DNA from: Thermococcus peptonophilus
Lineage (GTDB): Archaea; Methanobacteriota_B; Thermococci; Thermococcales; Thermococcaceae
DNA length: 64,000 bases
Assembly (NCBI RefSeq): GCF_001592435.1
Contig: NZ_CP014750.1
Coordinates: 434,001-498,000 of the forward strand
Reading direction: 5' to 3'
The position numbers and the translations under genes were made by a program. This document shows positions 11,657 through 39,942 of the stretch, in pieces; within the stretch, counting starts at the first letter, position 1; every line of letters begins with the position of its first letter. The notes below the pieces were generated by a model. That model saw only the letters and a program-made list of their open reading frames with translations. It had not been told where the DNA came from and searched no databases.

Positions 11657-12033
11657 TTCATTTTGGGTTAGAGTCTTATTGCAACCAACGACCTCGCCAG
11701 GCGCGGGGCCGTCTTCCGCGACTTTCAATTCTCCTAGAGTCTTATTGCAACTTGAAAGGCAATTGGGCGGCTATGGTCTTCCTTTCAGGGTACCTCTTTC
11801 AATTCTCCTAGAGTCTTATTGCAACCTCTCCGCATGGTGGTGGGCGAGGCAGCATGAGAGGATTTCAATTCTCCTAGAGTCTTATTGCAACTTGGACACA
11901 AGCACGAACGCCACGACCTGCTACGTGAAATTTCAATTCTCCTAGAGTCTTATTGCAACATAAATACTGAAAACAGCATATAAGGGGCTGGAGGTTGGTA
12001 TTAATTTCAATTCTCCTAGAGTCTTATTGCAAC
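11657..12033 (-). CRISPR. CRISPR array, 6 repeats and 5 spacers, leader on the right
   Basis: Five identical 29-base repeats lie at 11723-11751, 11797-11825, 11863-11891, 11931-11959 and 12005-12033. On the plus strand each begins TTTCAATTCTCC and ends CTTATTGCAAC. A sixth, degenerate copy at 11657-11685 keeps only the last 17 bases. Spacers are 37, 45, 37, 39 and 45 bases long from left to right. Read on the minus strand the repeat begins GTTGCAATAAGAC and ends AATTGAAA, as in Thermococcales arrays, so the leader is at the right and the degenerate repeat marks the distal end. The array is very short. Confidence 0.97.
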
Positions 12034-12552
12034 AGGGCGGTTTTTTCCTTCTTTTGCCTTACAAACTACTAAGAACGCTCGAATCTTATAAGCTTTTCCG
12101 CAAAGGGTACTTTGAAAAGCCCTCAGGAGCCCCCAATTCAAGGATTGTGGGCGGATTTTTCAACCAGAACCGATTTCTCTCCCTTCCGCTTAGTGCATGA
12201 ACAACAATGTTCAGAAGACTTCCCGAGCATTTTTAAGGCATTAAAAAGAAATTGACCAGTTTTCAGGTAGTTTTTGCCAGAAATACCATGTCAGCATTAG
12301 GGGGAAGTACGAAAAAAGTCCTAAAATGCCCCCATTCAGAATTCCGGAAAATTTCGTTACAAGAATGGGAAAATACATAACCTTTTGTTTGACAATAACC
12401 AAACGTTATTAAAGACTTCAAAAGGCCCATTGACAGATATTTTCCAAGTTACGTGCGCGTCAAACCTAATTTAGATCAACAGAATGATTTAAGCGTGATA
12501 CAAGCCAAAAACTATAAAACAATGTGAAATACATTAACTAAAAGGTGGTAGT
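12034..12552 (-). promoter_or_regulatory. CRISPR leader region
   Basis: 519 bases without a coding gene between the leader-proximal repeat and the cas2 start. On the minus strand a TATA-like element (cttataag, around 12085-12092) sits about 50-60 bases before the first repeat and could drive the array transcript. The region is A/T-rich with several homopolymer runs (for example tttttt near 12043), as is usual for leaders. A second promoter for cas2 on the plus strand probably lies near 12510-12530. I see no other feature here. Confidence 0.65.
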
Positions 12553-38585: not shown

Positions 38586-39314
38586 ATGGGAGTTGAGAAA
38601 GTCCCGAAATACGACATACCCACGAAGAAGGTTGACTACGTTTTTATCGAACTCGACAAGATGAAGCCTCACGAGCAGCTCGTACAGAAGGAGCTTGAAG
38701 CGTTTATCGAGAGCGTAACCGGCTCCGGAATATTCTGGAAGCCGATGCTCCTCGCCAAGGTTCCTGGCGAGGATATGTACCTCATCGTCGATGGTCACCA
38801 CCGCTGGGCCGGCCTCCAGAAGCTCGGCGCCAAAAAGGCCCCGTCTGTTATTCTCGACTACTTCAGCGACGACGTGAAGGTCTACACCTGGTATCCGGCA
38901 TTCAAGGGCGACCTCAACGAGGTGATTGAGAGGCTCAAGGAGGAAGGCCTTGAGGTCATCGAGGATCCGGAGGCTGAGGAGAAGGCCGAGAGGGGAGAGA
39001 TAGCCTTCGCCCTCGTCGGCGAGAAGAGCTTCGCCATCCCCGGAGGTCTCAACGAGCAGAAGAAGGTCAGCAAGGTTCTCGACGAGATGAGCGTCGAGGG
39101 CAGGATAGAGCTCATCTACTACGGCCTCAAGGAGGATGCGAGAGAGGACATGGCCAAGGGTGAGATAGACTACGTCTTCATCAGGAAGGCTCCGAGCAAG
39201 GAGGAAGTCATGGAGCTCGTCAAGCGCGGCGAGGTCTACTCCCCAAAGACCACGAGACACGTGCTACCGTTCAACCCAGACAAGATCGACGTGAAGCTCG
39301 AAGAGCTGTTCTGA
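38586..39314 (+). CDS. serK: ADP-dependent L-serine kinase SerK
   Basis: ParB/sulfiredoxin-fold kinase that phosphorylates free L-serine with ADP to give O-phosphoserine for cysteine synthesis. The 242-residue product matches T. kodakarensis SerK (TK0378) in its layout. Glu30, reported as catalytic, is present (KPHE30), and the ParB-like nucleotide motif VDGHHRWAGL lies near residue 62. ATG 38586 follows GGAGGGTCAGG. Standing alone between DUF763 and a guide RNA gene. Confidence 0.95.
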   Translation: MGVEKVPKYDIPTKKVDYVFIELDKMKPHEQLVQKELEAFIESVTGSGIFWKPMLLAKVPGEDMYLIVDGHHRWAGLQKLGAKKAPSVILDYFSDDVKVYTWYPAFKGDLNEVIERLKEEGLEVIEDPEAEEKAERGEIAFALVGEKSFAIPGGLNEQKKVSKVLDEMSVEGRIELIYYGLKEDAREDMAKGEIDYVFIRKAPSKEEVMELVKRGEVYSPKTTRHVLPFNPDKIDVKLEELF

Positions 39315-39343: not shown

Positions 39344-39353
39344 GTATATAAAC
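39344..39353 (+). promoter_or_regulatory. TATA box for C/D box sRNA
   Basis: gtatataaac, about 25-30 bases before the 5' edge of the guide RNA, the normal archaeal TATA-to-start spacing. Confidence 0.7.
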
Positions 39354-39376
39354 CTACACCCCTTAGGTATATGCCA

Positions 39377-39432
39377 CCCGATGATGACGGATCAACCGGC
39401 CGAACGGTGACGACATCGGTCTTGTCTGAGGG
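39377..39432 (+). ncRNA. C/D box 2'-O-methylation guide sRNA
   Basis: 56 bases with the full archaeal double-guide architecture: C box ATGATGA (39381-39387), a 12-base guide (39388-39399), D' box CCGA (39400-39403, one change from CTGA), a 4-base spacer, C' box TGACGA (39408-39413, one change), a second 12-base guide (39414-39425) and D box CTGA (39426-39429). CCC and GGG flank it as a short terminal stem. Eleven bases of the first guide are complementary to CCGGTTGATCC, the conserved 5' end of archaeal 16S rRNA. By the fifth-base rule the methylated base is the first U of that block. The second guide's target was not identified. Confidence 0.85.
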
Positions 39433-39501
39433 ACACCTACACAGGTACTTACAAAAAAGGGATTTAAAGCCTCGCCGCAAACACTACGATAGGGGATGGG
39501 T

Positions 39502-39942
39502 ATGTTAAATGTGTTTAAGCCGAGGGCAGGGCCCTCAAACGATAGCACGCCTTCCTCTAAAGAAAAGCACCATTTTAAGATAGTCCAATTAATCAGGGAT
39601 ATCCCCGAAAAGAGGGCCGTGGTAATAGGCAGGGCCGGCACAGAAGTTCCAGGAAGATGGAGACTAATACCCGTCAGCTCGGTTAAAGGCTATTTTGGAC
39701 CAAGGGAACTGCACAGAATCCTTGAGGGAATAGTTGAGCACCTGAAAGCCAACCCCAACGTGCCCATTGTCATAGCATGTCCAGAATACCTTGCAATCTA
39801 CAACGGTTTTGAGAGCTTTATAAAGTTTCTACACATCGTTAGGGACTACGCGATACTAACCGGCGGCAGGGTTTATCTAGTAACGGATCCAATGGCATGG
39901 GATCTCAAGCAAATGTCCCTTCTCCGTAGGCTGGAAACTTAA
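39502..39942 (+). CDS. DUF835 domain protein
   Basis: 146 residues. The C-terminal two thirds match DUF835 (PIVIACPEYLAIYNGFESFIKFLHIVRDYAI, GGRVYLVTDPMAWD near residue 123), a small alpha/beta domain common in Thermococcales, often in signalling-like or KaiC-associated contexts, of unknown function. The first 25 residues are Pro/Ser/Lys-rich and probably flexible. ATG 39502 has GGGGAT 4 bases upstream. ATG 39496 is the alternative. A TATA-like gatttaaagc lies near 39463. Confidence 0.78.
   Translation: MLNVFKPRAGPSNDSTPSSKEKHHFKIVQLIRDIPEKRAVVIGRAGTEVPGRWRLIPVSSVKGYFGPRELHRILEGIVEHLKANPNVPIVIACPEYLAIYNGFESFIKFLHIVRDYAILTGGRVYLVTDPMAWDLKQMSLLRRLET

Follow-up and report, generated by a model that had tools for sequence, protein, structure and literature searches.

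A box C/D guide RNA gene of Thermococcus peptonophilus with a conserved guide complementary to the 5′ end of 16S rRNA

The sRNA gene and its surroundings

The window (the whole 64-kb stretch of T. peptonophilus DNA analysed here) contains at 39381–39429, on the plus strand, a genuine archaeal box C/D guide RNA gene, a known kind of RNA with a measured ortholog. Its features and neighbours are listed in Table 1. A prior reading of the sequence only had claimed such a gene, with C, D′, C′ and D boxes, 12-base guides on both sides and a 4-base D′–C′ spacer, and every one of these elements was recovered, the gene itself being borne out by its Rfam match (sR14, 51 bits), its unique layout and the conservation of its boxes. 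The pattern RTGATGA-N12-CYGA-N4-TGAYGA-N12-CTGA had a single match when both strands of the window were scanned, and the full layout was absent from dinucleotide shuffles of the window (0/100). With three mismatches allowed there was still only one site, and a relaxed scan of the 64 kb found no second C/D candidate. The arrangement is that of an archaeal box C/D sRNA: outer C/D and inner C′/D′ motifs, 12-base guides that abut their boxes, and a short spacer (ACGG, the last G of which doubles as the R of C′, such that the spacer can be counted as 3–4 bases). Folding of the 62-nt RNA gave an uninformative secondary structure (z 0.23), as expected of a k-turn RNA.

Table 1. Positions in the window of the sRNA gene, its parts and its neighbours
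Feature	Position	Strand	Basis or remark
SerK-type L-serine kinase gene with ParB_N domain, upstream	38586–39314	+	Pfam SerK_C 6.7e-50, ParB_N 8e-7
TATA-like TTATTAA	39331–39337	+	fits published start site of T. kodakarensis ortholog (equivalent to window 39363)
TATA-like TATATAAA	39345–39352	+	29 bases upstream of the 5′ end predicted for the RNA from T. kodakarensis
C/D box sRNA	39374–39435	+	predicted extent, from the 62-nt circular T. kodakarensis ortholog
Core, C box to D box	39381–39429	+	C-12-D′-4-C′-12-D layout
C box ATGATGA	39381–39387	+	sequence, layout scan
D′ guide CGGATCAACCGG, 12 bases	39388–39399	+	bases 2–12 pair with 16S 4–14
D′ box CCGA	39400–39403	+	one base off consensus
C′ box GTGACGA	39407–39413	+	RTGACGA; one base off consensus
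D guide CATCGGTCTTGT, 12 bases	39414–39425	+	best target 16S 451–462
D box CTGA	39426–39429	+	sequence, layout scan
DUF835 protein gene, downstream	39496–39942	+	not part of the sRNA

The Rfam family sR14 (RF01145) matched 39377–39431 with 51 bits, above its gathering threshold of 38, and scored 38.3 bits in the whole-genome search. The match spans the whole model and exceeds the curated cut-off, and boxes, spacer and D′ half are nearly alike; the second guide of the model, however, differs from that of the window, and in most Thermococcus relatives the match is confined to model positions 2–37 or scores below the cut-off.

The orthologous locus in T. kodakarensis (G011), found at 316,134–316,188 by the sR14 search, lies inside sR15, also named Tko-sR16 (316,130–316,191), which has been recovered as a 62-nt RNA in linear and circular form, with 1,629,229 small-RNA reads (PMC9014305). 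Circular-junction reads numbered 698, against only 8 in an RNA-ligase knockout (PMC9014305). From C box to D box the two species are identical and the flanks are similar, with two bases differing in the 5′ terminal stem. Because the coordinates of the ortholog are known and the core is identical, the window RNA should occupy about 39374–39435. A transcript of about 56 bases had been expected; the RNA does exist in T. kodakarensis, although its size there is 62 nt (PMC9014305), and the main text of that paper gives no target for Tko-sR16. The 16S gene of the same genome, at 2,022,864–2,024,352, agrees with the KOD1 16S circle at 2,022,801–2,024,382 (PMC9014305). A fibrillarin gene is present in the T. 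peptonophilus genome.

The TATA box originally assigned to the gene, TATATAAA, suits the RNA 5′ end, but the T. kodakarensis start at 316202 (PMC9014305) maps through the ortholog to window 39363 and is better fitted by the more distal TTATTAA. A/T content reaches 86–97% at −32 to −29 from the C box in 63 related loci, and a promoter of its own thus seems to be a general feature of these genes.

The serK gene is the neighbour of the sRNA in most of the Thermococcus loci examined, and in many relatives the window-type sRNA directly precedes a HAD hydrolase gene. A circular RNA beside such a gene in T. kodakarensis KOD1 (Tko-sR01, next to TK0058; locus L190, 51411–51477) was considered as a second copy and rejected, its guides being unrelated. 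The block ACCTACACAGGTACTTACAAAAAAGGGATTTAAA that follows the window sRNA (39430–39467) recurs before the DUF835 gene in many Thermococcus loci (e.g. L009, L013 and L025); it holds an inverted repeat, ACCT-acac-AGGT, and may be the operator and promoter of the DUF835 gene. Elsewhere in the window, a short CRISPR array of the Rfam CRISPR-DR6 type lies on the minus strand at 11657–12036, with five good repeats and one degenerate end repeat spaced at 66–74 bases.

A constant guide to the start of 16S rRNA

The D′ guide pairs without mismatch (11/11) with nucleotides 4–14 of the organism's own 16S rRNA (CCGGTTGATCC), so that the eleven-base complementarity to the 16S start proposed earlier is exact. 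By the +5 rule, the guide selects U8, which lies opposite its fifth base upstream of the D′ box; U8 is equivalent to E. coli U13 and is the first U of the block, the very base for which methylation had been predicted, and the register is fixed. The duplex provides 11 consecutive Watson-Crick pairs covering the +5 base, where at least nine are required. The E. coli number was assigned by hand, with the common TTGATC (E. coli position 13) as the anchor, since automatic alignment, which gave 29 for U8, fails at the extreme 5′ end of 16S.

Composition-preserving shuffles scored as well as the D′ guide somewhere in 16S and 23S in 14/2000 cases, and conservation is far stronger evidence for the 16S target than these statistics. 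A strict pattern (GATCAACCGG with 0–6 bases before it and 0–4 after it, then the box) found the guide in 56/115 genomes of the phylum to which the window belongs and in 31/398 Thermoproteota genomes; although 0–4 bases were permitted, the guide abutted the box without a gap in every match listed by the strict searches. A reversed-pattern control gave no match. When G-U variants were allowed, the guide was found in 74/94 Thermococcaceae genomes (64/74 of those of good completeness), in a listing that includes a few extra matches that are clearly due to chance. Some of these 94 Thermococcaceae had no pattern match, and neither did about nine-tenths of the sampled Thermoproteota. A wide-gap pattern scan of genome contigs returned mostly bacterial chance matches, and the archaeal matches alone were used. 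Among the outcomes that would have spoken against the gene, the sequence-only reading had named boxes that are not conserved in close relatives while the flanking genes are; boxes, guide and register are in fact all kept across the Thermococcaceae.

Constancy extends to individual bases. Guide base 2, the partner of 16S C14, was unconstrained by the search pattern and yet was G in 88/88 parsed sRNAs, as was guide base 3, whereas base 1 was random; because base 2 is invariant and base 1 is not, the conserved duplex comprises 16S 4–14. Structural constraints on how long a duplex a C/D particle can accommodate could equally account for the free first base. The guide occupied the D′ slot in 63/63 parsed Thermococcales and the D slot in 23/25 parsed Thermoproteota, a change between phyla that points to convergence or to an exchange of modules; C/D sRNAs have been described as undergoing both (PMC4644070). 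The table of the same paper lists no sRNA that pairs with the 16S 5′ end. Novel in this analysis are the wide distribution and the constancy of this guide across most Thermococcaceae and into the Thermoproteota, along with a likely target of the D guide; earlier literature may already mention a Pyrococcus guide directed at U8.

On the strength of complementarity and register, the sRNA very probably directs a 2′-O-methyl group onto U8, the eighth base of 16S. The literature searched yielded no methylation data on U8 or on G455. In the table of non-acetyl modifications accompanying a P. abyssi 30S cryo-EM structure, the quoted rows name Am373 and Cm1376 and no U8; most 2′-O-methyls would be hard to see at 3.2 Å.

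A variable second guide

No target had previously been recognised for the D guide, but a search of 16S, 23S and tRNAs yielded a plausible one. The best site is 16S 451–462 (GCAAGGCCGGTG), with 12 continuous pairs made up of nine Watson-Crick and three G-U pairs, which places the +5 base at G455 (E. coli 510 by alignment with L312) in helix 18. Shuffled guides matched this score in 95/2000 cases in 16S and 23S, and in about 1% in 16S only. In the window guide taken alone, the nine Watson-Crick pairs are broken by G-U pairs and fall short of a strict rule of nine consecutive pairs; the guides of relatives reach ten Watson-Crick pairs with one or two G-U pairs, and relatives carrying ATCGGCCTTG turn the G-U pair with 16S 456 into G-C (U-G to C-G). 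A second site at 16S 848–859 (E. coli 902, helix 27) is weaker and fits less well here. Two further candidates were rejected: 23S G473, which scored 9.5 against 10.5 for the 16S site and would be disrupted by the T-to-C changes seen in relatives, and the tRNAs, where the best run among 26 was nine with four G-U pairs. As judged from pairing, the D guide probably directs methylation of 16S G455.

The first guide is constant among relatives and its partner is variable. In Thermococcus the partner is either of the window type or CCAGTCCAGG (type B), the latter being the commonest in the genus, strongly conserved and usually followed by a CCGA D box (e.g. L019, L021, L024 and L028–L032); no target for it was found in 16S, 23S or the scanned tRNAs. 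The genus that includes G106 and G117, presumably Pyrococcus (P. abyssi and P. horikoshii), has the sRNA gene elsewhere, with a partner guide directed at E. coli 820 or, in one species, 902. Thermoproteota partner guides match E. coli 902, 820 or 570 in 16S, but several cases have poor partner boxes or no partner target, and not all need therefore be double guides. Six Thermococcus loci (L274, L277 and L319–L322) have a D′–C′ spacer of about 20 bases in place of the usual 4, with the potential to fold into a small GC hairpin.

Methylation, pairing and the central pseudoknot

We regard it as highly likely that the locus encodes an independently transcribed box C/D sRNA that guides methylation of U8, and probably of G455, and acts before the central pseudoknot forms. 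L7Ae, Nop5 and fibrillarin would bind the C/D and C′/D′ motifs; the D′ guide would pair with 16S 4–14, allowing fibrillarin to methylate the ribose of U8 (E. coli U13), while the D guide would pair with helix 18, with methylation of G455 (E. coli 510) a probable outcome. We place 16S 4–14 (E. coli 9–19) in helices 1 and 2, the helices that form the central pseudoknot, as their 5′ strands. As a duplex with these strands excludes the pseudoknot, the sRNA would have to act early and then be released.

Two other accounts of the locus or of its target fare poorly. The D′ guide has a nine-base perfect match in 23S near 2950 (CCGGTTGAT), with the +5 base at U2950, but that this, rather than 16S, should be its main target is very improbable, since guide bases 2 and 3, invariant Gs that pair with CC in 16S, face GG in 23S and cannot pair there. 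Even harder to credit is the idea of a chance C/D-like sequence or of a leader element of the downstream gene, for which the position about 60 bases upstream of the start of the same-strand DUF835 gene might speak: the layout does not occur in shuffles, the sRNA is conserved where the downstream gene differs, and the ortholog is a discrete and abundant RNA (PMC9014305).

A more substantial question is whether pairing, and not methylation, is the main function, in which case the sRNA would be a U3-like chaperone, keeping hold of the 5′ pseudoknot strands and, through its second guide, of another core strand until 16S folds. The conserved duplex coincides with the equivalent of E. coli 9–19, where the 5′ strands of both helices lie, and in eukaryotes (yeast) the U3 box A′/A pairs with 18S 6–22 and excludes the pseudoknot (PMC4340053). 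The partner-guide matches that convince also fall on other strands of the core (E. coli 510, 570, 820 and 902), of which 902 just precedes the 3′ strand of the pseudoknot (916–918). Loss of the ligase that circularises sRNAs gave extra 16S 5′-end fragments (PMC9014305), a result that is suggestive and not specific, as the knockout hits all C/D sRNAs, and 23S too. On the other hand, the fixed register and guide spacing suit plain methylation guiding equally well, the commonest Thermococcus partner guide has no match in 16S, and the lack of a match in most sampled Thermoproteota means that such a role is not universal. We think a chaperone function of this kind unlikely to be the principal one, and prefer methylation guiding.

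The likeness to U3 is that of a box C/D RNA covering the same 5′ strand of the small-subunit rRNA, here through a perfect duplex with 16S 4–14, and excluding the central pseudoknot. U3, in contrast, is much larger and is no methylation guide; it also base-pairs with the 5′ external spacer and depends on Dhr1 to be released. At about 62 nt and with the standard two guides, the window sRNA was not assigned to U3, and a similar mode of action alone was considered. U3-like RNAs are described in reviews as absent or unknown in archaea (PMC3608112, PMC8339473). Nanoarchaeum equitans sR15 and sR17, which have been proposed as rRNA chaperones, likewise carry two 16S guides with sites that are distant in the sequence and near one another in the folded core, although they target helices 28 and 30, unlike the window sRNA (Dennis et al. 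2015, PMC4644070).

It is a tentative thought, with the balance against it, that two archaeal phyla carry a functional counterpart of U3, a compact C/D sRNA which orders pseudoknot formation by sequestering the 5′ strands with its conserved guide and another core strand with its second guide, the U8 methyl group being the mark of that step. The sRNA predicts one specific methylated base, U8, and as a fixed-register guide against the strand that U3 holds, it is a deletable candidate with which to ask whether an archaeal sRNA times the formation of the central pseudoknot.
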